This document shows positions 21,733-34,822 of a stretch of 39,475 nucleotides of DNA, piece after piece (position 1 is the first letter of the stretch; each line of letters begins with the position of its first letter). A program made the position numbers and the translations under genes. Source of the stretch: Methylotenera sp. (GTDB lineage: Bacteria > Pseudomonadota > Gammaproteobacteria > Burkholderiales > Methylophilaceae); the NCBI GenBank assembly GCA_023259635.1, contig JALRGX010000033.1, forward strand, positions 1-39,475. Direction: 5' to 3'. The notes under the pieces were generated by a model. The model had not been told where the DNA came from. It ran no database searches and saw nothing but the letters and a program-made list of their open reading frames with translations.

Positions 21733-22057
21733 TTTTAACCTTTAATCATCAATGTGAGTAAGAATGGCCAAACAAAAAGGTGCAATGTAAGATATCTTTT
21801 TAAGATCACTTAATTTAAATTGTTATTCATTCAGATTGACACATATCGAAAAAAGTTCGTATTTAAAAAAAATTTATAATAAAAAAATAATGTTATTTTT
21901 TTCTGGTGGGTGAAATTCATTCTATGTAAACGCCATCACACATATAAGTTAAGGTACTAATAAATTTCAAGCAAGTTAATGGTAATCTCTTGTATTCAAT
22001 CGTAATGTTTATATTTTGTAAGTTATCCGTAGTCAGAAATTAAAGAAGAGTTCAAAA
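21733..22057. other. AT-rich intergenic region
   Basis: About 320 bases upstream of the protease gene, strongly AT-rich, with no gene visible. It presumably contains the protease promoter and the ragged edge of the gene block that ends at tRNA fragment copy 4. Confidence 0.35.
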
Positions 22058-22134
22058 CAAAAAAGCCCACATTTCTGTGAGCTTTTAAAATGCTGGTGGC
22101 CGGCGCAGAATCAAACTGCCGACACGCAGATTTT
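22058..22134 (-). repeat. tRNA-Phe 3' fragment plus terminator, copy 4
   Basis: On the minus strand AAAATCTGCGTGTCGGCAG leads into TTTGATTCTGCGCCGGCCACCA (22,094-22,133), from the anticodon loop to CCA. It is followed by a perfect terminator: GCTCACA, loop GAAA, TGTGGGC, then T-run (22,059-22,086). No 5' half. It marks the left edge of the 12-kb anaerobic block. The 22,135-22,472 stretch to the next gene has no coding region. Confidence 0.85.
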
Positions 22135-22472
22135 AAAAAATATACGCAATACATATTTAATCAATAACTTGCAACGCCCGCAATCTTTGGAAATTAACTA
22201 GAGATTGATTCTTAAGAAGTTACGTTTTGGCTACGGATGCTTCATCCAGAAAACTAAGTTTTAATTCCTGTGGATAACAATCGCAGTTAATTTTGATGAG
22301 ATTACTGTATAAACAAAATTCAGGTCGATCCCTAGCTTTAAGATAAAACGGAAAATAAGTAAGAAAAACTTGCCGTTCATTTTTGATTTGAGCTGTCGGC
22401 TCAAAAGTTTCTATAAAATTAATGGTAGCTTATCTCAACACGCATCACCTCGTATATTTTAATCAAAATAAA

Positions 22473-22730
22473 CTACGTTTTAATGAAGTCAATTACAATA
22501 TTTCCCGGTTCACGTTGCCTGTACTGAAAAGTAACTGCAGCCCCATATCTCTGTTCCAATTGCAGCAGTAGCGGCAATGGGTCATGGTCATTCATGAAAC
22601 GCATTGTCTCACCGCTGGTCAGGGCATCCAATGCGCCAAAAATAGCAGCATGACGAAAACGCTTGGCAATCCCACGCGCATCAAATGGGTAGATTTGTTC
22701 GGATACTACATGGAGATGATTATTTAACAT
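22473..22730 (-). CDS. DUF2249 family small protein
   Basis: An 85-residue protein of the DUF2249 family (TusA-like fold). It shows the family core FDARGIAKRFRHAAIFGALDALTSGE, then the hallmark MNDHDPLPLLLQLEQRYG and a final GNIVIDFIK strand. DUF2249 proteins are repeatedly found with denitrification, nitric oxide and hemerythrin genes, but their role is not settled. The same-strand DGC-domain gene lies 118 bases upstream, so both may belong to one transcription unit driven from the FNR-type box at 23,340. Confidence 0.8.
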   Translation of the reverse strand: MLNNHLHVVSEQIYPFDARGIAKRFRHAAIFGALDALTSGETMRFMNDHDPLPLLLQLEQRYGAAVTFQYRQREPGNIVIDFIKT

Positions 22731-22848
22731 ATTTATCTTTCAAAAATTAAAAAATATTTACGTCAACCTTATCAATGCATCCGGCAGATATATTGAATCA
22801 AAGTCCCAGGGTTCATAAGCAAGCTTTAATATTTACAGTGAGTGTCAT

Positions 22849-23238
22849 TTATTCGCATAGCTGATTTGCTTTCAGGGTTAAGTCTGAAGCAATCAAATCA
22901 GCTTGCTCCCGATCAAATTCCGCGTGGTAGTGTTTTTTAATACCATGCTCATGCAGCAGTAAATGAAAGTCAGGACTAAGCCCACGTTCGGCAAGGCAGT
23001 GTTTCGCACAAGCCAACGGGCAGCCATCAATTGCGATAACAGGGCGTCCGGATTTGGCAATATTTACCAAGTGCGGCACATTGCCGCCTACACCTGCAAT
23101 GCAGGACATCTCTGCATCACCTTCACGATCCAACTTGAGTGCAATGTAATTCGCAGCCTGTGCTGCGCTTGAACATCCGGAACAGGAGTACACCAATGGC
23201 AATTTGCGATAATGCTGGGGTTTAATCCTCGTACTCAT
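22849..23238 (-). CDS. putative zinc-binding (DGC domain) protein
   Basis: A 129-residue cytoplasmic protein of the DGC-domain family. Conserved cysteine motifs are visible: VYSCSGCSSAAQAANYIA near residue 18, MSCIAGVGGNVPHLV near 46, and the name-giving DGCPLACAKHCLAERG near 72-87. These cysteines suggest bound zinc or another metal. Homologues occur with nitrogen-oxide respiration genes; the function is unknown. An FNR/DNR-type box lies about 100 bases upstream of its start, consistent with control by the neighbouring divergent regulator. Confidence 0.85.
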   Translation of the reverse strand: MSTRIKPQHYRKLPLVYSCSGCSSAAQAANYIALKLDREGDAEMSCIAGVGGNVPHLVNIAKSGRPVIAIDGCPLACAKHCLAERGLSPDFHLLLHEHGIKKHYHAEFDREQADLIASDLTLKANQLCE

Positions 23239-23339
23239 ATACCTTCATCTCTGTCGCGGCATTTCAAATGTTGGCAAGCAGGCGATATTTGCTCTATCCG
23301 TATTTCAATAAAGAGTAATGAATAATTTCATGCAAGTGT

Positions 23340-23353
23340 TTGACCAGAATCAA
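23340..23353 (-). promoter_or_regulatory. FNR/DNR-type box upstream of the DGC gene
   Basis: TTGACCAGAATCAA fits TTGAY-N4-ATCAA, the FNR/DNR operator. Its centre is about 108 bases before the DGC start codon, leaving room for a promoter with the box near -41 and a 65-base leader. The 23,239-23,652 stretch has no gene. Confidence 0.7.
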
Positions 23354-23652
23354 GTTTCAAAAATAATTGATTAGCAGTAGCGGAGAGCTTGAATTCAGGG
23401 TACATCACTTCAACTCGTTACGTGGCAAGAATAACTTCTCTAATCCTTGAAGCATCGCCGTTTTGTGCGATATCCGGCAGTGGTGAATTCAAGTCCATAG
23501 TAAGTGCTTCACCACATGGCATAAAGTAAGTAGAACGACCGCTTCAATAGTCAACGTTTACGATTCAAGTGATCTGCCTGGATGAGCTCGCCAACAACCT
23601 GGCAAAAATCAATGCAATCTTGATTTAACTTGAAACTTATCTTTTCTTATTC

Positions 23653-23666
23653 TTGACAAGAATCAA
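23653..23666 (+). promoter_or_regulatory. FNR/DNR-type box upstream of the regulator gene
   Basis: TTGACAAGAATCAA matches TTGAY-N4-ATCAA and differs from the box at 23,340 at two spacer positions only. Its centre is about 117 bases before the regulator start. TTCTAAT near 23,688 could be the -10, which would place the box close to -41, the activator position, and make the regulator self-controlled. Confidence 0.72.
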
Positions 23667-23776
23667 TTGAGAGATTGTTGTGAGATGTTCTAATTTCGTT
23701 CACATAATTTGCTGGACTTACCATTCCAACCGGTATGAGGTTTTGGCAAGCAACTGGACGTAGTATAAGGAGCTGT

Positions 23777-24460
23777 ATGTCTCTTAAGGTTATTTCACAA
23801 GCTTTAAAAAATTCTTCCTTATTTAAAGAACTTAGTTATGATCAAATTGAGAGAATCGCAGTACAGTCGCGGGTGATTGATTTTTCGAAGGGGCAAAGTG
23901 TTTTTAATCGTGGCGATCGGGCAATCGGTCTTTATATCCTGCTTGAAGGGCAGTTGAAGCTTGGGTTGACCTCTCCGCAAGGCTCAGAAAAGATTATCAG
24001 CATTATTTCTCCCGGTGAGAGTTTTGGTGAGGCAATCTTGTATCTTGAGCGTCAGTTCCCTATTTACGCTAAAGCAATTCTGGATTCAAAAGTTTTATTA
24101 GTCCCCAAGAGTCTTATTTTTTCTATGCTGGGCAGTGATCCTCAGTATGCTATCAAAATGCTCGCTGGTTTATCGATTAGAATGCATCAGCTGATTCAAA
24201 ACATTGAAATGCTATCGTTGCAATCCTCCACTCAGAGGTTCATCACCTATATGTTGCAAATAAGTGCCAAGGCCAAAGATGCAACTAAAATCAAGCTTCC
24301 TGCTAACAAGTTAACCATTGCATCATTATTAAATTTAACTCCGGAAACCTTGTCTCGAATTCTTACCAAACTTCAGCAATTGCAGTTAATAGAGGTCGAG
24401 GGAAGCAGCCTTACTATCGCAGACATTAAAAAACTAAGAAGTTATGATTTGAGTATCTAG
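23777..24460 (+). CDS. Crp/Fnr-family regulator, DNR type
   Basis: A 227-residue transcription factor. The N-terminal cyclic-nucleotide-like barrel runs over about residues 10-120 (FSKGQSVFNRGDRAIGLYILLEGQLKLG, ISPGESFGEAILYLERQFP), then the dimer helix (MLAGLSIRMHQLIQNIEMLSLQSSTQRF) and a winged helix with recognition helix TPETLSRILTKL, whose E-x-x-SR fits FNR-type TTGAT half-sites. It lacks the N-terminal Cys cluster of oxygen-sensing Fnr and instead follows the layout of the NO-responsive DNR of Pseudomonas. The ATG at 23,777 has AAGGAG ahead of it; an upstream in-frame extension looks non-coding. pdxS starts ten bases after its stop. Confidence 0.88.
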   Translation: MSLKVISQALKNSSLFKELSYDQIERIAVQSRVIDFSKGQSVFNRGDRAIGLYILLEGQLKLGLTSPQGSEKIISIISPGESFGEAILYLERQFPIYAKAILDSKVLLVPKSLIFSMLGSDPQYAIKMLAGLSIRMHQLIQNIEMLSLQSSTQRFITYMLQISAKAKDATKIKLPANKLTIASLLNLTPETLSRILTKLQQLQLIEVEGSSLTIADIKKLRSYDLSI

Positions 24461-24469
24461 GCTATTATT

Positions 24470-25393
24470 ATGACGAAATTATATAAAAATACAGATGATT
24501 TGCGTTTGAAAGTCGGGCTTGCCGAGATGCTTAAAGGGGGTGTCATCATGGATGTCACTGATGCTCGTCAAGCAGAAATCGCTCAACGTGCGGGTGCCTC
24601 TGCTGTAATGGCTTTGGAGCGTGTGCCAGCACAAATTAGAAGTGAGGGCGGTGTCGCGAGGATGGCCGCGCCACAGAAAATACGTGAAATTATGTCGGCT
24701 GTCTCTATTCCAGTGATGGCGAAATGTCGCATCGGACATTTCGCTGAAGCGCAAATTCTTCAAGAACTGGGGGTCGATTATATTGATGAGTCTGAAGTAC
24801 TTACTCCTGCAGATGAAGAACATCATGTAGATAAACATGGTTTTGTAGTTCCATTTGTTTGCGGGGCCCAAAACTTGGGAGAGGCACTAAGGCGAATCAA
24901 TGAAGGTGCAGCGATGATTCGGACAAAAGGAGAGGCGGGGACTGGTGATGTTGTGCATGCAGTAAAACATATGCGAAATATTACACGAGAGATTCGTCTT
25001 TTAACGCAGCTTCAAGATTCTGAGTTGTTTTCTTGTGCCAAAGACTTGCAGGCTCCCTATGAATTGGTTCGTATGGTAGCAAAAACCGGTAAGCTGCCAG
25101 TACCGAATTTCTCGGCTGGGGGTATCGCTACTCCGGCAGATGCTGCATTGGTCCGTCAACTTGGCGCCGAGTCTGTATTTGTTGGTTCAGGTATTTTTAT
25201 GAAAGATTCTGTAACGTTCTGTTCCGAAGCTGAGGCTGAATCAAGGGCCAAAGCGATTGTGCGAGCCACTGTTTATTTTGAAGATCCCAAAATTCTCCTT
25301 GAAACTGCTGCTGAATTACTTGGCACCATGAAGGGAATGGCTATCTCACAGCTCGCACCCAACGACTTACTTCAACATCGTGGAGAATCGTGA
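24470..25393 (+). CDS. pdxS: pyridoxal 5'-phosphate synthase subunit PdxS
   Basis: The synthase half of the DXP-independent PLP synthase, building PLP from ribose 5-phosphate, glyceraldehyde 3-phosphate and ammonia. The 307-residue barrel shows the family signatures: [18 protein letters not shown] with the key Asp, [46 protein letters not shown] with the Schiff-base Lys (MAK), and [17 protein letters not shown] with the second active-site Lys. It overlaps pdxT by four bases and directly follows the DNR-type regulator. Most betaproteobacteria instead use PdxJ/PdxA with oxygen-using PdxH, so this pair looks acquired and fits an anaerobic programme. Confidence 0.97.
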
Positions 25394-25983
25394 TTTCTTC
25401 TTTATCGATTGGTGTTTTAGCTCTGCAAGGTAGTTACGACGCCCATCTGCAAAGCCTTAAAAAACTCTCCATAGTTGCCAGGTTAATTCACCGGCCAGAG
25501 CACTTGGCAACTATCGATGCGTTGATTATTCCTGGCGGTGAATCAACGGCTATGTTGGAGCTTCTTAAAAAAACGGGCTCTTTTTGGGAAGAATTGCAGC
25601 AATTTGTCCATAAAAAGCCATGTTTAGGAACATGCGCAGGTGCAATATTGTTGGCTTCAAATGTAGAGAACCCCGCTCAGGACTGCCTGGGTTCACTAGA
25701 TATTACTGTGAAGAGAAATGCTTATGGCCGACAATTGCAAAGCTCGATTCATAGCGGGAAATGCAAATATGATGATGGCAGCATTGAACTTGTATTCATT
25801 CGTGCTCCCAAAATTGTCAGAATTGGGCCTGCAGTTGAAGTGCTGGCTGAACATGATGGAAGCCCCATTTGGGTGAAACAGGGCCAAACAATGGCAACAA
25901 CCTTTCATCCGGAACTAACATTGAACAAGATCGTATATAAAAAGTGGATAGAAAATATTAAGCATGAAATTTCTAATTTCTAA
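25390..25983 (+). CDS. pdxT: pyridoxal 5'-phosphate synthase glutaminase subunit PdxT
   Basis: Glutaminase partner of PdxS, releasing ammonia from glutamine and passing it to the synthase barrel. The 197-residue class I amidotransferase has [14 protein letters not shown] at the start, [14 protein letters not shown], the nucleophile elbow [11 protein letters not shown] with the catalytic Cys (about residue 80), and the His-Glu pair in TTFHPEL (about residues 175-181). The GTG start overlaps the pdxS stop in a GTGA junction, the usual translational coupling of this pair. Confidence 0.95.
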
Positions 25984-26350
25984 TATGTTCAGGTGGCGCT
26001 GAAATATCGTCTGACCATTAATCCATACTCCCGCATTGTCAGAATTCTCTGGTTCGTGCAATTTCCTCCCCCTATTTAGCTTCCCGATTCCTTTAATTTT
26101 AGGCTGTAATTGACGATGGTCAAGAAATCTCGCCGACACTTAAAATTCAATAAAATCATTGGCATAAACTCATGATCTGCTTGATGCATATACGAGCGTT
26201 TCTTTGCAAGAGATCTAATGCTGTAAAGCGTAAATTGGCATTGCGCATAAAGATATGCGCGTATGGTGTTGAGCACACTGAAAACTAATGATCCTGGGTT
26301 TTACATGTGTGCCCGATATTTATTTAATTAATGTTGTTAGGAGATGCAAA
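25984..26350. other. intergenic region before pqqA
   Basis: About 370 bases with no supportable gene. Frames on the minus strand are short and do not resemble known proteins. The region should hold the pqqA promoter; I found no FNR-type box in it. A good AGGAG lies at 26,339-26,343 ahead of pqqA. Confidence 0.4.
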
Positions 26351-26425
26351 ATGCAATGGATGGAACCTGATTTCTGCGATCTACGCCTAGGCTTTGAAGT
26401 GACAGCTTACGTATACGTTCGTTAA
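26351..26425 (+). CDS. pqqA: PqqA, RiPP precursor peptide
   Basis: A 24-codon precursor peptide. Its second half, DLRLGFEVTAYVYVR, is very close to Klebsiella PqqA, with the conserved Glu16 and Tyr20 three residues apart that PqqE joins by a carbon-carbon bond. AGGAG lies seven bases before the ATG. A strong hairpin follows before pqqD, as expected when the precursor is made in excess over the enzymes. It heads an apparent operon pqqA-pqqD-pqqE-membrane peptide-membrane protein-SerC-like-PyrD-like. pqqB and pqqC are not in the window. Confidence 0.93.
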   Translation: MQWMEPDFCDLRLGFEVTAYVYVR

Positions 26426-26433
26426 GTAAATCT

Positions 26434-26456
26434 GGGCGCGGCATTATGCTGCGCCC
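26434..26456 (+). terminator. hairpin between pqqA and pqqD
   Basis: GGGCGCGGCA (26,434-26,443) pairs with TGCTGCGCCC (26,447-26,456), ten pairs with one G-T and a three-base loop. Only TAAAACG follows, so it is more likely an attenuator or mRNA 3' stabiliser for the pqqA message than a full stop. Confidence 0.75.
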
Positions 26457-26479
26457 TAAAACGAGATAAGGAAACCCTT

Positions 26480-26773
26480 ATGTCTGAAAATAATATATTA
26501 GCGCCTCAGGATCGGCCAAAGCTTAATCCTAAGTATCTATTGCGCTGGGAAAAATCGCAAGATGCTTACATCCTGCTATACCCCGAAGGGGTAATCAAGT
26601 TAAACCCAAGTGCATCCGAAATATTGAAGCGGTGTACCGGTCAATTGAGCGTGGAAGATATGGTTGCTGAACTCAGCAGCCTGTTTGCGGATGCGCCTGA
26701 TATTACTCATAGTATCTACAAGTTTCTGGAGAATTCGTATGCCAAAGGATGGATCGACAACACAGGCTGTTAG
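26480..26773 (+). CDS. pqqD: PqqD, RiPP recognition element chaperone
   Basis: A 97-residue peptide chaperone that binds PqqA and presents it to PqqE. The family pattern is complete: PRPKLNPKYLLRWEKSQDAYILLYPEGVIKLNPSASEIL covers the winged-helix recognition element, and LFADAPDITHSIYKFLENSYAKGWID is the C-terminal helix pair. Length and motifs are those of a normal stand-alone PqqD. An AAGG-type ribosome site (GATAAGGAAAC) precedes the ATG. It overlaps pqqE by 35 bases. Confidence 0.95.
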   Translation: MSENNILAPQDRPKLNPKYLLRWEKSQDAYILLYPEGVIKLNPSASEILKRCTGQLSVEDMVAELSSLFADAPDITHSIYKFLENSYAKGWIDNTGC

Positions 26774-27893
26774 CCTTGATGGTCAAGGTAAACCAATGTG
26801 GCTGGTGTTGGAACTTACGTACCGTTGCCCGCTGAAATGTGTCTGGTGCAACAACCCGCTGGATTATGAACAATATGGCAGGAAAGAGCTTAATACTGAC
26901 GAATGGATCAGGGTGCTGCGGGAGGGGCGCGAACTTGGCGCTTTGCAACTCGGATTCTCAGGCGGCGAGCCTATGCTGCGGGATGATTTGGAAATTCTGG
27001 TGGCTGAAGCTGAGCAGCTCGGTTATTACACCAACCTGATTACTTCCGGTGTTGGTCTAAATCATGAGCGCTTGCAGGCTTTGAAGAAAGCCGGACTTAA
27101 GCAGATTCAGTTGAGCCTGCAATCAGCCAATCGCCAGCTTACTGATGAATTAGTTGGTGCACGTGCCCACGATCTCAAGATTGATGTCGCACGCATGATT
27201 AAGGCTGAAGGTTTTCCTATGGTGCTGAATGTTCCTGTATTCCGGCAGAACATCGACCAGGTTCAGCAAATCCTGGATCTGGCTGAGGAAATTGGTGTGG
27301 ACTATCTGGAATTTGCCAATATTCAGTATTACAACTGGGCGTTGCTTAACCGAGAAGAGTTGCTTCCTACACGGGAGCAGATCGTACATGCGGAAGCTGT
27401 TGTGAATGAAGCACGTCAGCGTATGGGTAAACGAATGACCATCTATTTTGTTATCCCGGATTATTACGAGAATCGCCCCAAAGCCTGCATGAACGGTTGG
27501 GGGACGATTCACCTGACCATCGCTCCGGATGGGGCTGCGCTTCCATGTCAGGAGGTACGCGTGATCAAGGGGCTGGAATTTCCGACGGTACGTGAGCACA
27601 GTCTTAGCTGGCTGTGGAATGATTCGCCTTTATTCAAGAAATTCCGTGGTGATGAATGGATGAAAGAGCCTTGCAGAACCTGTGATGAGAAGGAAAAAGA
27701 TTTTGGCGGTTGTCGCTGCCAGGCATTTTTACTCACCGGGGATGCCGCCAATACTGATCCGGCATGTTCAAAATCACCGCATCATCATGTTATTGAGATG
27801 GCAATCAACAGGGCACGAAGTAATAACAAAGAACCGCGACCGCTCATCAGGCGGCAACCAGGCGCTGTTATTACCTCGTTCATGGAATCATGA
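26739..27893 (+). CDS. pqqE: PqqE, radical SAM enzyme crosslinking PqqA
   Basis: A 384-residue radical SAM enzyme forming the Glu-Tyr carbon-carbon bond in PqqA. The radical SAM cluster motif is Cys30, Cys34 and Cys37 (ELTYRCPLKCVWC), followed by LGFSGGEPMLR. The SPASM part carries the auxiliary cluster cysteines: KACMNGWGTIHL, ALPCQEVR, EPCRTCDEKEKDFGGCRCQAF and DPACSKSPHHHV. All are those of genuine PqqE. The start at 26,739 is chosen because GGAGA lies just before it and the frame upstream runs inside pqqD. The last bases overlap the next ATG (ATGA). Confidence 0.95.
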   Translation: MPKDGSTTQAVSLDGQGKPMWLVLELTYRCPLKCVWCNNPLDYEQYGRKELNTDEWIRVLREGRELGALQLGFSGGEPMLRDDLEILVAEAEQLGYYTNLITSGVGLNHERLQALKKAGLKQIQLSLQSANRQLTDELVGARAHDLKIDVARMIKAEGFPMVLNVPVFRQNIDQVQQILDLAEEIGVDYLEFANIQYYNWALLNREELLPTREQIVHAEAVVNEARQRMGKRMTIYFVIPDYYENRPKACMNGWGTIHLTIAPDGAALPCQEVRVIKGLEFPTVREHSLSWLWNDSPLFKKFRGDEWMKEPCRTCDEKEKDFGGCRCQAFLLTGDAANTDPACSKSPHHHVIEMAINRARSNNKEPRPLIRRQPGAVITSFMES

Positions 27894-27991
27894 AAACGCC
27901 GTTTGATACTGCAACTGGCACCATTGTACTTGGCATGGTGCTGACAATGGTACTGTACCTGATTGTACGTAAACTCGTGTTAGGAGCCTAA
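27890..27991 (+). CDS. 33-residue single-span membrane peptide
   Basis: A short gene whose ATG overlaps the pqqE stop (ATGA) and which ends three bases before the next start, so its place in the operon is tight. The 33-residue product is nearly all one membrane helix: after KTPFDTATG comes TIVLGMVLTMVLYLIV, then RKLVLGA with positive charge at the C-terminal end. AGGAG within its own last codons serves the next gene. It may be a small subunit of the membrane protein downstream; this is inferred from coupling only. Confidence 0.75.
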   Translation: MKTPFDTATGTIVLGMVLTMVLYLIVRKLVLGA

Positions 27992-27994
27992 GCC

Positions 27995-28498
27995 ATGGAA
28001 CATCTGCTGGATTTTCTTTTACGCTGGATCCATTTTTTAGCGGGGATTATCTGGGTAGGTCATAACTATGCCAGTGTCATTCAGCGGCCTTCCTATCGGA
28101 GATTGCACCCTGAAGATTTCAGTGATGTACAAAGTCCGGTATACCTGGGATTGTTGAGTCGTGAACACGGTACATTCCGATATGCTGCAGTAGTCACTTG
28201 GCTGGCTGGTGTGGGTATGTTGTGGCAGCGTGGAATTCTTGTCGACGCTGTGACGATGCAAGGATATTTCGCAGTAATTGGAACTGGTTTCTGGATTGGT
28301 ACCGCCATGCTGGCAAATCTCTGGCTTGTGTTATGGCCTCATCAGAAGAAGGTGCTCGGCTTTGTACCTGCTTCTACCGAGGAACGGATTCGCTGCTCGA
28401 GGGTGACATTCCTCTCATCGCGCTGCAATACGATGATGTCTATTCCCCTCTTGTTTTTTATGGCAGCCAGCCAACATGGTGCGGCACTTTTTACCTGA
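27995..28498 (+). CDS. PuuD-like (DUF989) membrane protein
   Basis: A 167-residue inner-membrane protein resembling the N-terminal membrane domain of bacterial urate oxidase PuuD. Landmarks are LLRWIHFLAGIIWVGHNYASVIQRP near the start, SREHGTFRYAAVVTWLAGVGML, GTGFWIGTAMLANLWLVLWPHQKKVLG, and SIPLLFFMAASQHG at the end, giving about four membrane spans. Several conserved His residues lie at helix ends and could bind heme or a quinone. It lacks the cytochrome c part of full PuuD. In this operon it may pass electrons for, or from, the PqqA-derived product; that is inference. AGGAG precedes the ATG. Confidence 0.75.
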   Translation: MEHLLDFLLRWIHFLAGIIWVGHNYASVIQRPSYRRLHPEDFSDVQSPVYLGLLSREHGTFRYAAVVTWLAGVGMLWQRGILVDAVTMQGYFAVIGTGFWIGTAMLANLWLVLWPHQKKVLGFVPASTEERIRCSRVTFLSSRCNTMMSIPLLFFMAASQHGAALFT

Positions 28499-28505
28499 CC
28501 CGGTA

Positions 28506-29597
28506 ATGGATAATCCTTCCTACAACTTTGCCGCTGGTCCAGGAGTCATGCCAGCAGCAGTGCTGGAACAGGCGCAAAAGGAGTTTCTTAACTGGAATAA
28601 AAGCGGGATGTCACTCCTCGAAACGCCTTTTAGCGGCGCATCCTTTAAGAAACTCTTTCAGGAAGTTCGTGATAATCTGCGACAGCTGCTTGCAATACCT
28701 GACGACTATCAGATTCTGTTTATGCACGGTGGCGCCTCAGCCCAGTTTTCCCTCGTGCCTTTGAATCTGCTGGGTAAGCATGTAAAGGCGGATTATGTAG
28801 AAACCGGCTATTGGTCTGCAAAGACGATGCGTGAAGCAGGCCGTTATTGTCAGGTACGGGTTGCGGCCAGTTCTGCAGATACCGGATTTGATAGCATGCC
28901 AAACACATGGCAGATTGCTCCTCAGACAGCATATTGTCATATCACCAGCAATGAAACAGCGAATGGCGTGCAGTTTCATCATGACCCGGATACTGGAGAT
29001 ATACCACTCATCGCTGATATGACATCAGACTTTCTAAGTCGCCCAGTGGAAATTTCCCGATATGGCTTGATTTACGCAGGTGCACAGAAAAATATTGGTC
29101 CAGCCGGACTGACCGTGGTGATTGTGCGTAAAGATTTGCTCGGTCACGCTCATGCTGCTACGCCATCGGTATTCAATTATTGCCTGCAGGCCGAAGCCGA
29201 CTCTATGCTCAATACCCCCCTTACATTCGCAGTTTATTTGGCAGGCCTGGTTTTTCGCTGGATTGAATCACAGGGTGGCCTGGAAATGATGGCTCAGAAT
29301 AGTTTCCGGCGCAGTGCACGTTTGTATCAGGTTATTGATGACAACAATGATTTTTATTGCTGTCGGGTGCAGCCTGCGCATCGCTCATATATGAATGTCT
29401 GCTTTAATTTGGTCAATGAGGCGCTCACGGAAAAATTTTTGGCAGAAGCTGAGATTTCAGGGTTGCATCATCTGAAAGGACATCCCATGGTCGGCGGCAT
29501 ACGTGCTAGTATTTATAATGCCATGCCTGATGAGGGGGTCGAGGCGTTGATGCTTTTTATGCGCCATTTTGCTGAGAATTACCGCTCATATGTATGA
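28506..29597 (+). CDS. SerC-family aminotransferase paralog with altered substrate site
   Basis: A 363-residue fold-I PLP aminotransferase, clearly related to phosphoserine aminotransferase SerC. The PLP Lys motif YAGAQKNIGPAGLT is intact. The substrate-phosphate site is not: E. coli His41-Arg42 (SHR) aligns with Phe42-Ser43 (TPFSGASF); Arg77 of HGGGRGQF aligns with Ser (HGGASAQF); and Arg329 of KGHRVVGG is Pro (KGHPMVGG). The protein should bind PLP but probably not 3-phosphoserine. It sits inside the pqqADE operon, so an amine or keto acid on the crosslinked peptide product is a candidate substrate. The ATG at 28,506 is preferred; an upstream in-frame start overlaps the membrane protein. 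Confidence 0.85.
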   Translation: MDNPSYNFAAGPGVMPAAVLEQAQKEFLNWNKSGMSLLETPFSGASFKKLFQEVRDNLRQLLAIPDDYQILFMHGGASAQFSLVPLNLLGKHVKADYVETGYWSAKTMREAGRYCQVRVAASSADTGFDSMPNTWQIAPQTAYCHITSNETANGVQFHHDPDTGDIPLIADMTSDFLSRPVEISRYGLIYAGAQKNIGPAGLTVVIVRKDLLGHAHAATPSVFNYCLQAEADSMLNTPLTFAVYLAGLVFRWIESQGGLEMMAQNSFRRSARLYQVIDDNNDFYCCRVQPAHRSYMNVCFNLVNEALTEKFLAEAEISGLHHLKGHPMVGGIRASIYNAMPDEGVEALMLFMRHFAENYRSYV

Positions 29598-30495
29598 GCT
29601 ATTGTCTCGCACGCTGTTAAAAATTAATCCGCAGTACGCCCGTGCAATGGCATGCCACGCCACGCATTTAGCTTCCAAGTTTGTGCATAACAGGCCCCCT
29701 GAATCACTGCGGCGAAAAGTGATGGGACTGGAGTTTCCTGGACCGATAGGAATGGCTGCAGGTTTTGACAAGCACGGTGAACTTTATCCTGCACTTTCTG
29801 AAATCGGGTTCGGATTTGTTGAAATCGGTTCTGTTGTTCCACAACCTGAGCATCAGCGCAGCCGTGGACTTGAAGTCGTTGCTGCCAATTTGATGCGCTA
29901 TTCTCATCCACATCCGATTCCGCTTGGAGTCAGCCTGAGCATGAATCGAAAAACGCCATTTGCACAGATGTTCCAGGATTATCTTATCGGCATGCGGGGC
30001 TTGTGGAAATATGCTGATTATTTTGTGATTAATCTAGGCGTCCGTGCAGGTCCAGACCTGCATTTGCAGGAGAACCGTGCTGCCTTGTACAAGGTTTTAA
30101 CTAATGTTAAGGATGAACAGCGCCGATTGAATAGCGAGCATGGTGCTTATCGTCCCTTAGTGGTAAAAATTGATCAGCACCGCGGTGATACCAATGCCTT
30201 GCTATGCTGCGTCAGAGACTATTGTTTCGATGGACTTATTCTCGGCGGCGATAAACATCAAGGTGGAAATCAAGGTGAAAGCAACCGCACGCTTACCGGG
30301 CTAGCAAATGCGGTCAGAATATTAAGCGCCGATACTGCGGTAATTTCAGTTGGCGGAATCTGCACACCGCAAGATGTGGCCAATCATCTTTCTGCCGGGG
30401 CTGCGCTGATACAGATTTATAGCGGGCTGGTCGCATCTGGCCCTATGTTGCCACGACGTATTAATATGCATTTATCAAATACATCAATAGACTGA
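29590..30495 (+). CDS. PyrD-like (DHODH class 2) FMN enzyme with lost orotate site
   Basis: A roughly 301-residue homologue of quinone-linked dihydroorotate dehydrogenase. FMN-binding and framework segments are kept: GPIGMAAGFDKHGELYPAL, FVEIGSVVPQPEHQ, VISVGGICTPQDVANHLSAGAALIQIYSGL. The catalytic loop normally NISSPNTPGL is INLGVRAGPDLHLQ, without the base Ser or Cys and its Asn; the NRMGFNN-type Asn motif reads MRYSHPHP; the TNTT segment reads LGGDK. It should bind FMN but is unlikely to oxidise dihydroorotate. The N-terminal helices match class 2 membrane/quinone contact. The start overlaps the SerC-like stop by eight bases. Confidence 0.82.
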   Translation: MYELLSRTLLKINPQYARAMACHATHLASKFVHNRPPESLRRKVMGLEFPGPIGMAAGFDKHGELYPALSEIGFGFVEIGSVVPQPEHQRSRGLEVVAANLMRYSHPHPIPLGVSLSMNRKTPFAQMFQDYLIGMRGLWKYADYFVINLGVRAGPDLHLQENRAALYKVLTNVKDEQRRLNSEHGAYRPLVVKIDQHRGDTNALLCCVRDYCFDGLILGGDKHQGGNQGESNRTLTGLANAVRILSADTAVISVGGICTPQDVANHLSAGAALIQIYSGLVASGPMLPRRINMHLSNTSID

Positions 30496-30525
30496 TCTCA
30501 GATTGATGCCTAATGATTGGAAAAA

Positions 30526-31440
30526 TTAAGCTCGACACCCCTGACGAGTGCCTCGACGATGCAACTCCCGTTCTATTCCATTAAGCACATCCCATTTCCT
30601 GGAGCACCAGTCAGGTGCTAAGAGAACGTCACTAGCGGCGGTAGCCGTTACTCTATGAAATATAATATGTTCCGGTGTCCGTTCAATCATATCTGCTGAA
30701 ATTCTTATATAGTCATCCATTGACAAGGGTAAATACTCACCTCGTTTCCATTGATAAGCCAACAATGTGTTTTTAACCACATGAAGTGGGTGAAGTTTGA
30801 GACCATCGACACCAAGCTCAAGCACCTTGTCTAGTGTTCTATGGCAGTGCTGTTCTTCCTCTCCCGGCAATCCAATAATCAAATGGGTACATACAGGTAT
30901 ACCACGTGCCCTCGCTGCCAATAAAGTCTCTTTGTACTCAGAGAAACCATGTCCACGGTTAACGCGTACAAGGGTTTCATCAAATGCTGATTGCAAACCA
31001 AGTTCCAGCCAAACTTCCCAACCTTCATTTCGTAAGGTATCCAGCAATTCGAGCACCTCAACAGGTACACAATCGGGCCTGGTGCCTACCGAAATACCAA
31101 TGATATCAGGCTGTAACAAAGCTTCACGATAAAGGCTTTCCAGTAAAGTGACATCAGCATAAGTATTGGTATAAGCCTGAAAATAAGCTATAAAATGTTT
31201 CGCTCCGGTACGTTTGGAAATGGCTATTCTGGCCTTGGCCATTTGGCCATGCAAATCAAGACTTGAGCCGGCATCCGGGCTAAATGACACATTATTGCAA
31301 AAGGTACAACCACCATAACCTTTTGACCCATCTCGGTTAGGGCAAGTGAAACCTACATCAAGTGCAATTTTATGCACTCGTTTCCGGTATCGCTTGAGCA
31401 AATGTTGTCCAAATGTATTTATTTTGTCTGAAAGTACCAT
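30526..31440 (-). CDS. YhcC-like radical SAM protein (TIGR01212 family)
   Basis: A 304-residue radical SAM protein of the YhcC/TIGR01212 family, with unknown reaction. The cluster-binding stretch is the long-spaced form, DVGFTCPNRDGSKGYGGCTFCN, with Cys residues about 12 and 2 apart. After it come YFQAYTNTYAD, GISVGTRPDCVP, ELGLQSAFDETLVRVNRGH and THLIIGLPGE, all typical. It is on the same strand as and 220 bases downstream of ubiV and could be read through from that operon. No gene is seen in 31,441-31,660. It adds another oxygen-sensitive enzyme to this block. Confidence 0.88.
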   Translation of the reverse strand: MVLSDKINTFGQHLLKRYRKRVHKIALDVGFTCPNRDGSKGYGGCTFCNNVSFSPDAGSSLDLHGQMAKARIAISKRTGAKHFIAYFQAYTNTYADVTLLESLYREALLQPDIIGISVGTRPDCVPVEVLELLDTLRNEGWEVWLELGLQSAFDETLVRVNRGHGFSEYKETLLAARARGIPVCTHLIIGLPGEEEQHCHRTLDKVLELGVDGLKLHPLHVVKNTLLAYQWKRGEYLPLSMDDYIRISADMIERTPEHIIFHRVTATAASDVLLAPDWCSRKWDVLNGIERELHRRGTRQGCRA

Positions 31441-31660
31441 GTATATACTCTGCTGTATGTACCGCCGTCATTCATTATCGCAACACTAACCCTGCACATT
31501 CACGGCACTTTTAAACCAACAAAAATAACCATCACCTAAAGTTTATCTGTCAGTCATACCTCAATCAAATGAGGTCTTTGGGGTTTATATCGAGCGTAAT
31601 GTTTTACTGTGAGTTTGGCTGATCTGCTTCCTGTTTGAAATAACCAATCAAAGATAACGC

Positions 31661-32590
31661 TTATCTGCTCAATGAATGGTCATGATTGCTCCATTCATAT
31701 CCTGCAGCATGATTGTAAAATCCGTTAAAGCAAGGCACATCACCCAATAAAGATTGGACAATAGAAGCCGCCTGTTCTCCAGAAATACTCCCTTGCAGTA
31801 TTGAGTATGCAGTTTCAATGATTGTGTCTGTATGTAAACTATGCGGTGATATACGAAAATTAGTAACTCCCATCTCCATTAACTCCGGAATCTGGGGGAG
31901 AAGATTAAGGTAACCATAAGACATGGTTTGTATGCCGTTGATACAAAGAAAACGCTGGTCTGTCAGGGTTTTTAATGGCATACCATCAGGGTCGTGTTCA
32001 CAAACGTATTGGCAGTTATCTTTGACCCTGCCGTATGAACGAGCGTGATAGCACCTTGCTGACAGGGCAAGACCAACTCTTCCGGAAACTTGCACTTCAA
32101 GGCTTACATCAAGAGTTTTTGCAGTTTCGCCCATAACACTTATTGTGTTGCGTGGCAGTTCCGCTGGCAGCACTACATGATAAGCGCCATTTAAGGCCAG
32201 GTATCTTAAAGTTTCCTCGTTATAGACATTGCAGTATTGACCAATTCGATGTGGTTTTTTACGTAAATGATAGATTGCCGAGGTGTCGTTTGCCTCAACC
32301 TCATACTTTTCGTCGTGACAAAGCTCCTCCGTTATTTTTCGTTCACGCTGTGTCATGACCTCTGCCAGTGAGGAAAAAACTACTTTTTTACCTGCACGTG
32401 CCAGCCGATCAGTAATCTCAGCATAATAAGGCATCAGAAAAGGCGAGCGCTTAGAGCACACAACCTCTCCAAGGTAGACCGTATTGATAGGCGATTCATC
32501 AGCAATCTTGAAATAAAAATCCCGCTTTGTTTCAGCTGGCCAATGAAACAATATCGGTCCAAGCGTTAGGTTGCCTTGTATTGTATCCAT
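31661..32590 (-). CDS. ubiV: UbiV, anaerobic ubiquinone hydroxylation (U32 family)
   Basis: A roughly 309-residue Fe-S protein of the U32 family that, with UbiU, carries out the oxygen-independent ring hydroxylations of ubiquinone synthesis using prephenate as donor. The four cluster cysteines known in E. coli UbiV are all present: one in YLGEVVCSKR, and three in SARCYHARSYGRVKDNCQYVC. LCINGIQTMSYGYLNL is a further family segment. The ATG at 32,590 begins one base after the ubiU stop; an earlier start would overlap ubiU. It is third in the ubiT-ubiU-ubiV operon. Confidence 0.92.
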   Translation of the reverse strand: MDTIQGNLTLGPILFHWPAETKRDFYFKIADESPINTVYLGEVVCSKRSPFLMPYYAEITDRLARAGKKVVFSSLAEVMTQRERKITEELCHDEKYEVEANDTSAIYHLRKKPHRIGQYCNVYNEETLRYLALNGAYHVVLPAELPRNTISVMGETAKTLDVSLEVQVSGRVGLALSARCYHARSYGRVKDNCQYVCEHDPDGMPLKTLTDQRFLCINGIQTMSYGYLNLLPQIPELMEMGVTNFRISPHSLHTDTIIETAYSILQGSISGEQAASIVQSLLGDVPCFNGFYNHAAGYEWSNHDHSLSR

Positions 32591-32591
32591 G

Positions 32592-33605
32592 TTATTTCCA
32601 GCGTTTTGTCTCATAGGCCCCCAGCGTTTGCTTATGCCCTTCAGTCAAGGATAGAAGATGATCCATGTTGACGGTTCCACCTTCCAGGACAGTATCGATG
32701 GCGTTTCTCCATGAAGAGACAACGTTCTGGATATAAGCTTTTGATCGCTGACGTCCTTCTATCTTAAAGGCGTTAACCCCTGCAGCAATTAATTCGGGGA
32801 GAAGATCAGCAAGATTCAGGCTTAAGGGTTCTTCAAAGGCATAATAGGGATCATCCCTGTGTGCGACTGTGTAACGGCCCTTGCATATGGTTGGATAACC
32901 AGGATTCTGCGAGCAGGAAAAACTATCTATCGTAAATCTATTGAGCTCAGTATTAAGATTTCGATTAACATCCACTTGATAACTCACAAAGTTGGCAGGT
33001 GAGCATACACCATCCATATTCGTTGATAATCCTGTTGCATAATTGGTTAAGCTACAACGACCTTCAGCCATCAGCCCATGGTTTCCGAAAATAAAGCATT
33101 CAATTTCACATGGTATTTCTTGCTTCAATGATTTTATTTCTGCAATCGTTAAAATACGTGGCAGTACAACACGTTTAACATCAAATTCTTCACAATAAAA
33201 TTTAATGGCCTCAACGGATGGAGCTCCCGCCTGCACTGAAAGATGAAGTCGCAAATCTGGATATTTGTTTTTTGCGTAAAGCGCCACGCCCATGTCAGCA
33301 ACGATGATCGCATTAGCCCCCAGCTTATAAGCCAAATCAACGGCATCCTTCCACAACGGAAACTGACCTGCAGGGGGAAATGTGTTAAGCGCAACAAGTA
33401 CATGAGCCTTATGGTCATGAGCATAGGCAATCGACTCTTCCAATTCAGCAGTCGTAAAATTCAGTCCGGGAAAGTTGCGGGCGTTAGTGGCATTTTGAAA
33501 TCCACAATAGACTGTATCCGCCCCGGAATCGACAGCGGTGCGCAAAGAGGCTGGCGTGCCCGCAGGGCATACAAGTTCCGGTTTATGTTGAATATTGATG
33601 TTCAT
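32592..33605 (-). CDS. ubiU: UbiU, anaerobic ubiquinone hydroxylation (U32 family)
   Basis: A 337-residue partner of UbiV. It aligns with E. coli UbiU throughout: ELVCPAGTPASLRTAVDSGA, TNARNFPGLNFT, GYPTICKGRY, NAFKIEGRQRSKAY and the C-terminal TLGAYETKRW. Three of the four cluster cysteines are at their places (Cys184 in AEGRC, Cys201 in GVCSPANF, Cys241 in TICKGRY). The first one (E. coli Cys169) is Gly177 here, in FGNHGLMAEGRC; extra Cys166, Cys170 and His176 lie close by and might replace it. It overlaps ubiT by 23 bases, implying coupled translation. Confidence 0.92.
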   Translation of the reverse strand: MNINIQHKPELVCPAGTPASLRTAVDSGADTVYCGFQNATNARNFPGLNFTTAELEESIAYAHDHKAHVLVALNTFPPAGQFPLWKDAVDLAYKLGANAIIVADMGVALYAKNKYPDLRLHLSVQAGAPSVEAIKFYCEEFDVKRVVLPRILTIAEIKSLKQEIPCEIECFIFGNHGLMAEGRCSLTNYATGLSTNMDGVCSPANFVSYQVDVNRNLNTELNRFTIDSFSCSQNPGYPTICKGRYTVAHRDDPYYAFEEPLSLNLADLLPELIAAGVNAFKIEGRQRSKAYIQNVVSSWRNAIDTVLEGGTVNMDHLLSLTEGHKQTLGAYETKRWK

Positions 33606-34149
33606 TGGCCACTTTTCTGAGTATCGTTAAGAACTGCACACCGATTGGTCCGAAATAGGAAGCAGCTTCACTCGCCACGCTCCCGTCTATATCGTCCAGC
33701 GCGTTACGCAAACAGACAATTGCTTCTGTATCGCCAGATATTTGTAAATCTCGCGTAAAAAAAAGCGCATCCCCGTCAAAGCGACCATCTATCATTCCTA
33801 TGAGAGTGAGAAATGAACCGGAAATTGTGGCGTCTGCGTAAAATCCAGCTTTTTTACGTATTGCATTCAGATGAGGTGATGCTGGGTCAGGGCGAAGTAT
33901 TAAGTCAAAGGATAAGTTTGTAATTTCAATGAGAAAAGTTTTATGGTGGTGCCCCGACAGCCTGTTAAAGAGAGAAGGATAATTTCTTATTATTTTTACT
34001 ATTGTGCGATTTAAAACGTAATTTATTAATGGCAATGGTATAGGGCGAGCTAATAAACGCAGCAATTCCTCCTTACATGCAGGGTTCTTTCTCAAACGTT
34101 TAGCCAATATTGATAACATATTCATGGCAACAGACTGTATCGTCTGCAA
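33583..34149 (-). CDS. ubiT: UbiT, SCP2-domain lipid carrier for anaerobic ubiquinone synthesis
   Basis: A protein of up to 188 residues with a sterol-carrier-type SCP2 domain (about residues 60-165), including LIGMIDGRFDGDALFFTRDLQISGDTEA, the stretch that identifies UbiT. UbiT binds prenylated ubiquinone intermediates and is needed for anaerobic synthesis with UbiUV. The true start is unsure. An FNR-type box lies only 13 bases upstream of the longest frame, so a start at 34,125 or 34,119, or further in, fits an activator site better. It is the first gene of ubiTUV. Confidence 0.88.
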   Translation of the reverse strand: MQTIQSVAMNMLSILAKRLRKNPACKEELLRLLARPIPLPLINYVLNRTIVKIIRNYPSLFNRLSGHHHKTFLIEITNLSFDLILRPDPASPHLNAIRKKAGFYADATISGSFLTLIGMIDGRFDGDALFFTRDLQISGDTEAIVCLRNALDDIDGSVASEAASYFGPIGVQFLTILRKVANEHQYST

Positions 34150-34161
34150 ACATAAAAGACG

Positions 34162-34175
34162 TTGATTTTGGTCAA
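34162..34175 (-). promoter_or_regulatory. FNR/DNR-type box upstream of ubiTUV
   Basis: TTGATTTTGGTCAA is an FNR/DNR operator (TTGAT-N4-GTCAA). It stands directly before ubiT and shares its half-sites with the boxes at 23,340 and 23,653, as if one regulator controls all three units. With the box near -41, transcription would start about 34,127. Confidence 0.75.
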
Positions 34176-34406
34176 GTATTACTAGTTATATTTAAAAAGT
34201 CGTTTTAGCCATAATTTTTTTATGGATTTAATTAGCCTGAACTGCTCTCCAGACACATTAAATCGCAAGATGCCTAAGAATAATCCAATTTTGGTTTTAT
34301 CGACGATAGGATTCTTTGTTGTTGGTGTTGCGCTAAATAAGTGCTTTTTAGGGTAATTACCCTGTTGTTATGAAGGAAAAAATGAATATTTAGCTACGTT
34401 TTGGCT
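34176..34406. other. intergenic region right of ubiT
   Basis: AT-rich spacer with no gene between the ubiTUV control region and tRNA fragment copy 5. TACGTTTTGGCTA near 34,394 also occurs near 22,222, at the other end of the block; the meaning is unknown. Confidence 0.3.
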
Positions 34407-34482
34407 AAAAAAACCACATTGCTGTAAACTTTATTGTATATGGTGGCCGGGGGTAGCATCGAACTGCCGACACGTGGATTTT
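34407..34482 (-). repeat. tRNA-Phe 3' fragment, copy 5
   Basis: On the minus strand TTCAAAATCCACGTGTCGGC leads into AGTTCGATGCTACCCCCGGCCACCA (34,441-34,480), spanning anticodon loop to CCA. The terminator that should follow is recognisable but decayed (34,407-34,433, aligning with the hairpin of copy 4). The 5' half is absent. It bounds the 12-kb anaerobic block on the right. The 34,567-34,822 stretch beyond its arm has no gene apart from a terminator. Confidence 0.8.
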
Positions 34483-34566
34483 GAACTATAAAAATCATCA
34501 TTTATATATTGTTTTAGGCCCGTCTTCACTCGCCTATGTTCGCCAGAGTATGACAAAATTGTCACG
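34483..34566. repeat. element-end arm shared with 14,591-14,675
   Basis: Continuing rightward from tRNA copy 5, about 85 bases match those next to copy 1 at roughly 85 percent, including TTATATATTGTTTTAGG and TGACAAAATT. The match ends abruptly after GTCACG, suggesting a defined element end. A short frame here (34,481-34,663) is not credible as a gene. Confidence 0.7.
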
Positions 34567-34739
34567 GCAGTTTCTTGGACGTCACTTATTTAACGGAATG
34601 CTCGTGAGGTATTTGAAACGGTCTGATGCAGATAACGCCAGATGTCTATTTGTCACAGGATAATCCTTACAATATATTATGGCATCATTTCACTGGATAC
34701 CATGTGCATGCGACATATACCCAATTTCATGTCAGGCAT

Positions 34740-34776
34740 AAAAAGCCCGCTGACCAATTAAGGTCGAACGGGCTTC
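34740..34776 (-). terminator. terminator of the HAF autotransporter gene
   Basis: AAGCCCG (34,743-34,749) pairs with CGGGCTT (34,769-34,775), with an inner GACC/GGTC stem. On the minus strand the hairpin is followed by a T-run. Confidence 0.82.
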
Positions 34777-34822
34777 AATATGCCTAAGTTTTACATCCAG
34801 GCAATGGTAACAGTCCCATCCA

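Follow-up and report, generated by a model that had tools for sequence, protein, structure and literature searches.

An operon joining pqqA, pqqD and pqqE to SerC-, PuuD- and PyrD-like genes in Methylotenera sp. as a candidate oxygen-independent branch of pyrroloquinoline quinone biosynthesis

Results

The operon and the second pqq locus of the same genome

The window analysed here is positions 1-39,475 of contig JALRGX010000033.1 of Methylotenera sp. (assembly GCA_023259635.1), which is contig C73 of a 2.2-Mb genome. The analysis concerns a seven-gene run at 26351-30495 in which all genes lie on the plus strand and most overlap their neighbours or are separated by a few bases (Table 1). As the original prediction had it, the run consists of pqqA, pqqD, pqqE, a short membrane peptide, a PuuD-like membrane protein, a SerC-like pyridoxal phosphate (PLP) enzyme and a PyrD-like flavin mononucleotide (FMN)-type protein. 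PqqA, PqqD and PqqE scored over their TIGRFAM equivalog cut-offs and the PyrD-like protein under its own; PqqD reached 94.2 bits against NF002535, slightly under the cut-off of 101. The run contains the set by which canonical pyrroloquinoline quinone (PQQ) modules are recognised, namely PqqA with an E-x3-Y core, PqqD and PqqE, and assignment of PqqE as an MftC-type maturase failed (TIGR03962, 96.6 bits versus a cut-off of 265). The profile scans of the SerC-like and PyrD-like proteins used the alternative starts at 28476 and 29569, respectively. Within 22000-35000 of the window, Rfam gave nothing at gathering score.

PqqB and PqqC, predicted to be lacking, were indeed absent from 26351-30495, but both were found elsewhere in the genome, on contig C69, together with a second PqqE and a canonical PqqA of the EVTMY type. 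PQQ-type dehydrogenase matches were also obtained in this genome (four pieces, one over the family cut-off). The window operon is the second PQQ locus of its genome. Furthermore, a second serC was located at C69:18402-19466, and a second pyrD was matched at C25:26228-26815 inside a 341-residue frame; the SerC-like and PyrD-like genes of the window are therefore paralogs and not the housekeeping copies, a possibility that the original prediction had named as its own refutation.

Table 1. Features of the window and of the canonical pqq locus in the same genome (positions refer to the window unless preceded by C69)
Feature	Position	Strand	Support or remark
pqqA, 24-residue precursor peptide, core GFEVTAY	26351-26425	+	TIGR02107 31.2 bits (cut-off 20); PF08042 36.2 bits
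pqqD, peptide chaperone	26480-26773	+	TIGR03859 87 bits (cut-off 46)
pqqE, radical S-adenosylmethionine/SPASM Glu-Tyr crosslinking enzyme	26739-27893	+	TIGR02109 507 bits (cut-off 381)
33-residue single-helix membrane peptide	27890-27991	+	Open reading frame; tblastn homologues in 49/80 loci
PuuD_N-like (short DUF989) four-helix membrane protein, 167 residues	27995-28498	+	PF06181 49 bits (cut-off 26.9)
SerC-like PLP enzyme	28506-29597 (upstream ATG 28476 also possible)	+	TIGR01364 461 bits (cut-off 443.6)
PyrD-like (class 2 dihydroorotate dehydrogenase (DHODH) fold) FMN-type protein	29590-30495	+	TIGR01036 152 bits, below cut-off 200
FNR/DNR-type palindrome TTGACGATGGTCAA	26110-26123	.	241 bases before the start codon of pqqA
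CRP/FNR-family regulator	23735-24460	+	Context
pdxS	24470-25393	+	Context
pdxT	25390-25983	+	Context
ubiV	31661-32614	-	NF047965/NF047963 set over cut-off; context, outside the unit
ubiU	32592-33605	-	NF047965/NF047963 set over cut-off; context, outside the unit
SCP2-domain protein in ubiT position	33583-34149	-	PF02036; context, outside the unit
Canonical PqqC	C69:13773-14447		Same genome
Canonical PqqB	C69:14534-15439		Same genome
Second PqqE	C69:12294-13343		Same genome

Conservation and distribution of the cluster

The main set of relatives was obtained by a scan of genome contigs; the best 80 of 180 relatives were taken and their loci fetched at up to 20 kb. The order pqqE-puuD-serC on a single strand was kept in all 80 homologous loci, so the operon is more than a chance arrangement, and PyrD was found in 69 of them (tblastn, 1e-3). 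Genomes are counted below by handle; since G711 and G431 are one genome, 56 handles stand for 55 genomes and 86 for 85.

Many of these best 80 of 180 relatives belong to genera known for denitrification, namely Dechloromonas, Thauera, Aromatoleum, Denitromonas, Stutzerimonas and Marinobacter. In the trees, the highest identity to the window was shown by a Methylotenera metagenome-assembled genome (MAG) (PqqE 87%, SerC 69%). In a class sample of 369 genomes, at least four besides the window's own carried the cluster among the best-matching loci whose neighbours were readable (the 30 best matches), and a further genome with puuD-serC-pyrD (G065) came from a search of 300 genomes of the order. 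In an alphaproteobacterial sample, 7 of 289 genomes matched (two of them already in the set); six alphaproteobacterial loci read at greater length contained pqqA, pqqD, pqqE, puuD and serC in every case and pyrD in three. Two loci, L104 (Dechloromonas agitata is5) and L108 (Acidovorax sp. 210-6), had identical gene positions and near-identical identities, a likeness that may reflect recent transfer or a mixed assembly.

Altered SerC-, PyrD- and PuuD-like proteins

Residues of the SerC-like protein were mapped by alignment to E. coli SerC (1bjn). The equivalents of W102, T153, D174, Q197 and K198, presumably the PLP residues (E. coli numbering), were kept in 86/86 cluster rows. At the positions of His41 and Arg42, which we take to bind phosphate, the first was Phe and the second was lost in 86/86, whereas both were kept in 25/25 housekeeping SerC. 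The PyrD-like protein behaved likewise: of the residues assumed to hold FMN, the equivalents of Lys217 and the GG pair were kept in 77/77 rows and that of Asn172 in 75/77, and of what is presumably the orotate site (NRMGFNN, the catalytic Ser175, Asn177 and TNTT), the NRMGFNN block was absent from 77/77 rows and Ser occupied the Ser175 position in only 10/77. The rows comprised the window and 76 of 80 PyrD found in 85 loci, those of less than 200 residues or less than 40 bits having been dropped. The model of the window protein (predicted local distance difference test (pLDDT) score 93.8) matched E. coli DHODH (7t5k) at E 5.5e-23. The proposal that SerC and PyrD are redesigned enzymes was thus borne out, and residue comparison supports their assignment as altered paralogs that have lost the phosphoserine and orotate sites and kept the PLP and FMN residues.

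Of the trees with standard copies that had been suggested, those built for PqqE and SerC split off the cluster proteins: a 100/100 branch separated 36 cluster SerC (taken from the 86) from 25 housekeeping SerC, and a 99/96 branch parted 36 cluster PqqE from 19 canonical PqqE, of which one row (L213) stood on a very long branch.

The PuuD-like protein was modelled with four long helices (pLDDT 92.1). The added E57 and H58 were present in 86/86 rows and H23 in 85/86 (one gap), and ten short DUF989 paralogs had other residues at these positions. No cytochrome domain was matched within its 167 residues. Searches of PDB sequences (up to E 1) and of structures with Foldseek (up to E 0.001) gave no hit either, which makes a role of His13, His23 and His58 in binding heme or a metal guesswork. 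A peptide like the 33-residue one of the window was found by tblastn beside short DUF989 proteins in 10 of 25 non-cluster loci (L044, L045, L047, L048, L049, L051, L053, L055, L061 and L068); perhaps the short DUF989 protein and the small peptide form a conserved two-part membrane unit. In the three such loci read for it (L045, L049 and L051), a gene judged by eye to be acetylornithine-aminotransferase-like lies near the short DUF989 gene.

Probable shared use of PqqE with the canonical PQQ pathway

With the window's PqqA as query, 67 PqqA were found in 85 loci, and all 67 have the core EVTAY. The 15 canonical PqqA, from 20 fetched loci, have E(V/I)TMY; these were picked up by a pattern to which some loci escaped, so the split may look over-clean. 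The residue preceding the crosslinked Tyr may mark two PqqA types.

In the fetched loci of relatives, PqqB was present in 20/80 and PqqC in 19/80. In five loci the two branches are joined into a single compact run, with no gap longer than 442 bases, in the orders pqqB-C-A-D-E-peptide-puuD-serC-pyrD (L075), pqqB-C-A-D-E-puuD-serC-pyrD (L134), pqqE-...-pyrD-pqqB-C-A-D (L077 and L114) and pqqA-D-E-...-pyrD-pqqB-C (L129). Genome-wide, PqqC was found in 83 of 86 cluster-bearing handles (54/56 plus 29/30; 82 over the cut-off), against a background of 38 of 274 class genomes, four of the 38 being cluster genomes themselves. PQQ-type alcohol dehydrogenase matches (1e-40) were obtained in 56/56 handles, 55 of them over the cut-off; among 14 controls E. 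coli alone matched, under the cut-off.

A lone PqqE match (1e-90 or better) was found in 20 of the 56 handles, a further PqqE besides that of the cluster being present in the other 36; Dechloromonas denitrificans is an example of a denitrifier in which one PqqE was found. Eighteen of the 20 also have PqqC, and in 18/18 of these the lone PqqE was the cluster's own by coordinates. The PqqA of these loci was of the EVTAY type wherever found (15/18), in several beside pqqB-C-D. Because the cluster PqqE is the sole one found beside PqqC in these 18 of 56 handles, its product should be a PQQ precursor there; judged by gene content, the peptide that it crosslinks must be able to become PQQ via PqqB and PqqC in those 18 genomes, unless a second PqqE lies in an assembly gap.

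PqqC was not matched in three of the 86 cluster handles (G670, G678 and G722). In G670 and G678 neither PqqB nor PqqC was matched (PqqB being searched in six handles only), and PQQ dehydrogenases lie 7-10 kb from the cluster PqqE. G670, in which the cluster lies on a 397-kb contig, gave no match to PqqB, PqqC or a second PqqE; the contig of G678 stops 8 kb from the cluster puuD, and the locus of G722 is a 4-kb contig. The idea that the cluster suffices on its own because PqqC is missing was therefore kept as a hint only, with G670 as the sole fair case of the three.

Association with anaerobic life

UbiV was searched in the first 46 of the 56 cluster handles and found in 46/46, versus 0/34 class genomes that have PqqC but no cluster; when the comparison is restricted to the class sample, the counts are 4/4 and 0/34. 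The 34 controls were called cluster-free by their PuuD match (none, or at most 48% identity), and seven of them were also checked by neighbours (L050, L052, L054, L058, L059, L062 and L068). A genus code is common to G431, which has the cluster and UbiV, and G543, which has PqqC and neither of them.

The upstream scan covered the 78 rows that offer 300 or more upstream bases; close relatives among them do not count as independent. Of the 41 loci beginning with pqqA (window included), 20 have the exact palindrome TTGAY-N4-RTCAA in the 300 bases before this gene, in 19 of the 20 at a distance of 170-250 bases. Among 2960 random stretches of 300 bases from these loci (coding DNA included) it occurred in 23; it was found in 0/37 loci taken as starting with pqqE, and before none of the 15 canonical pqqA found. 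A narrower pattern with at least 9 of 10 letters occurred in 14/78 rows versus 0.76 expected. Gene content and upstream motifs support a likely tie of the unit to anaerobic life.

Other oxygen-independent cofactor genes, already noted in the original prediction, do neighbour the operon (pdxS/pdxT, ubiV/ubiU and the SCP2-domain gene). The pair pdxS-pdxT lies upstream of the window cluster, and Methylotenera locus L071 likewise has it close to its cluster; PdxS-PdxT synthesises PLP directly, with no need for the O2-using PdxH. Together, pdxS-pdxT, ubiUV and the cluster may form a single island of oxygen-independent cofactor genes. A large HAF-repeat protein is encoded farther on, at 34823-36931 on the minus strand (TIGR02913, 146 bits).

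Discussion

The cluster is proposed to be an oxygen-independent branch of the PQQ pathway with ordinary PQQ as its product, a reading to which a probability of about 0.8 is given. Sequence comparison established the elements on which this proposal is built, namely the PqqA/PqqD/PqqE module, the probable shared precursor, the altered active sites and the anaerobic association. As in the rest of the family, where PqqD and PqqE act on PqqA, PqqD would present PqqA to PqqE, which would crosslink Glu and Tyr of the EVTAY core, and the Glu-Tyr unit would be released by an unlinked peptidase. The SerC-like PLP enzyme, the PyrD-like FMN protein and the PuuD-like protein with the small peptide would then replace PqqB and PqqC, which would act when O2 is present. 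By arithmetic, the balance would be C14H18N2O7 + H2O -> C14H6N2O8 (PQQ) + 14 H; without O2, the ring oxygens would come from water, and the 14 electrons would pass through flavin and membrane into the quinone pool and from there to nitrate or another acceptor. It is moderately probable that the PLP enzyme of SerC fold, the flavoprotein of DHODH fold and the short membrane protein of PuuD type jointly carry out the ring hydroxylations, the amine ring closures and the removal of 14 electrons, taking oxygen from water and using the respiratory quinone pool as acceptor, and that they suffice for PQQ supply in genomes that lack PqqB and PqqC, a possibility at which G670 hints. To our knowledge, no enzyme of such kind has been characterised for PQQ.

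Several points weigh against this proposal. A transaminase has no obvious place in PQQ synthesis, since both nitrogens come from Glu and Tyr. PqqC is kept in nearly all cluster handles, which leaves the sufficiency of the cluster a supposition, and the PqqC-negative handles are few and unfinished (MAGs or drafts); likewise, a draft genome with a single PqqE may conceal another. The PyrD-like protein is fast-diverging, and in 18 of 77 rows fewer than 49 residues precede the barrel motif (with script-chosen starts), so a quinone-binding N-terminal part is not always evident. No second SerC match (1e-60) was found in 5 of 30 handles (G431, G638, G418, G698 and G706), in a search that covered SerC and no other transaminase types, so some of these may use another phosphoserine transaminase. 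The two sets compared for UbiV differ in phylogeny. Lastly, UbiTUV is essential for denitrification in P. aeruginosa according to PMC12423496, and this species has canonical pqq genes only; the link between cluster and UbiV is therefore not absolute.

According to the original prediction, crosslinked PqqA is converted along another, perhaps oxygen-free, route into a new redox cofactor, which would leave PQQ to the canonical locus only. An oxygen-independent path from crosslinked PqqA does fit the UbiV counts and the FNR-type boxes, but the new cofactor is unlikely. It would agree with the EVTAY core of cluster PqqA versus E(V/I)TMY in the canonical one, with the position of cluster PqqE on its own side of the 99/96 branch, and with a transaminase, which fits a product whose amino group is lost or changed. 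However, canonical pqqA, pqqB, pqqC and pqqE and other serC and pyrD genes are present in the window's genome, which makes a new cofactor improbable; pqqB itself accompanies the cluster in a quarter of the loci (20/80); the cluster PqqE, with an EVTAY PqqA wherever one was found, is the only one found that could serve PqqB and PqqC in 18/56 handles; and PQQ dehydrogenase matches accompany the cluster in every handle searched. A new cofactor was dropped as the best reading on the single-PqqE and fused-run results.

An accessory role is also quite improbable. The task of the three extra enzymes at low O2 would then be the modification, recycling or protection of PQQ or of intermediates on the way to it, for example by re-oxidising AHQQ-type intermediates for PqqC, and would not replace PqqB and PqqC. 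The almost constant retention of PqqC (83/86) and its occurrence in one gene run with the unit would suit such a role, for which an own pqqA just upstream (41/78 loci) and, where a further PqqE exists (36/56 handles), the unit's own PqqE would be needless; in G670, moreover, the cluster is present but PqqB, PqqC and a second PqqE were not matched. That SerC and PyrD are housekeeping copies merely lying beside a pqq remnant is scarcely credible and was dropped after the residue tests and the SerC tree, for although the window SerC passes the TIGR01364 cut-off and five handles gave no second SerC, 25 of 30 (the window's own genome and 24 others) have one, the H41/R42 pair is lost in all 86 cluster SerC and kept in 25/25 others across a 100/100 branch, and the orotate block is absent from all 77 PyrD rows.

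Completion of PQQ by PqqB and PqqC uses O2. Klebsiella and P. aeruginosa are cited in PMC12423496 as making no PQQ anaerobically, which raises the question of how denitrifying methylotrophs and alcohol oxidisers load their PQQ dehydrogenases without O2. For that question, the oxygen-independent branch proposed here offers genes that can be named, a clear-cut genomic signature and organisms with a single operon. If the proposal is true, PQQ joins haem and ubiquinone among the cofactors with a known anaerobic route, and new chemistry is gained for three enzyme folds.

A pqqAED-puuD-serC-pyrD cluster in Hyphomicrobium, Halomonas, Stutzerimonas, Methylophaga and Azoarcus is described in PMC12423496 (June 2025), where anaerobic PQQ synthesis is termed a tempting speculation from annotation and RNA-seq; the window thus adds one more example of a cluster noticed only recently. 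The Hyphomicrobium denitrificans cluster Hden_0548-0553 has the same genes and lies near oxygen-independent ubiquinone genes, and Hden_0551-0553, ubiXDTUV and the denitrification genes drop in the same regulator mutants (PMC12423496). The shared single PqqE, the UbiV split, the active-site losses, the palindromes and the PqqA core are comparative tests that the present analysis adds to the accessible part of that paper. In a search of the open-licence PMC literature, no published test of the cluster's function was found; the accessible parts of a Thiobacillus paper and a Methylomirabilis paper do not mention such a cluster, and M. oxyfera is given in the latter as having no PQQ synthesis genes.

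Compared with known systems, the window run resembles canonical pqqABCDE in its PqqA, PqqD and PqqE, with a Glu-x3-Tyr core and PqqE over the equivalog cut-off, but has SerC-like, PyrD-like and PuuD-like proteins and a small membrane peptide in place of PqqB and PqqC. It is like the UbiT/UbiU/UbiV pathway, adjacent in the window, in its logic of an anaerobic gene set doubling the O2-using steps of a quinone cofactor, although the proteins are unrelated. With the cytochrome c urate oxidase PuuD, which according to PMC4562309 oxidises an N-heterocycle at the membrane and consists of eight helices and a C-terminal cytochrome c, the window protein shares the PF06181 (DUF989) core, and that paper also mentions short DUF989 proteins whose gene neighbourhood differs; unlike that oxidase, the 167-residue protein has four long helices, no cytochrome c domain, and the added His23 and Glu57-His58.

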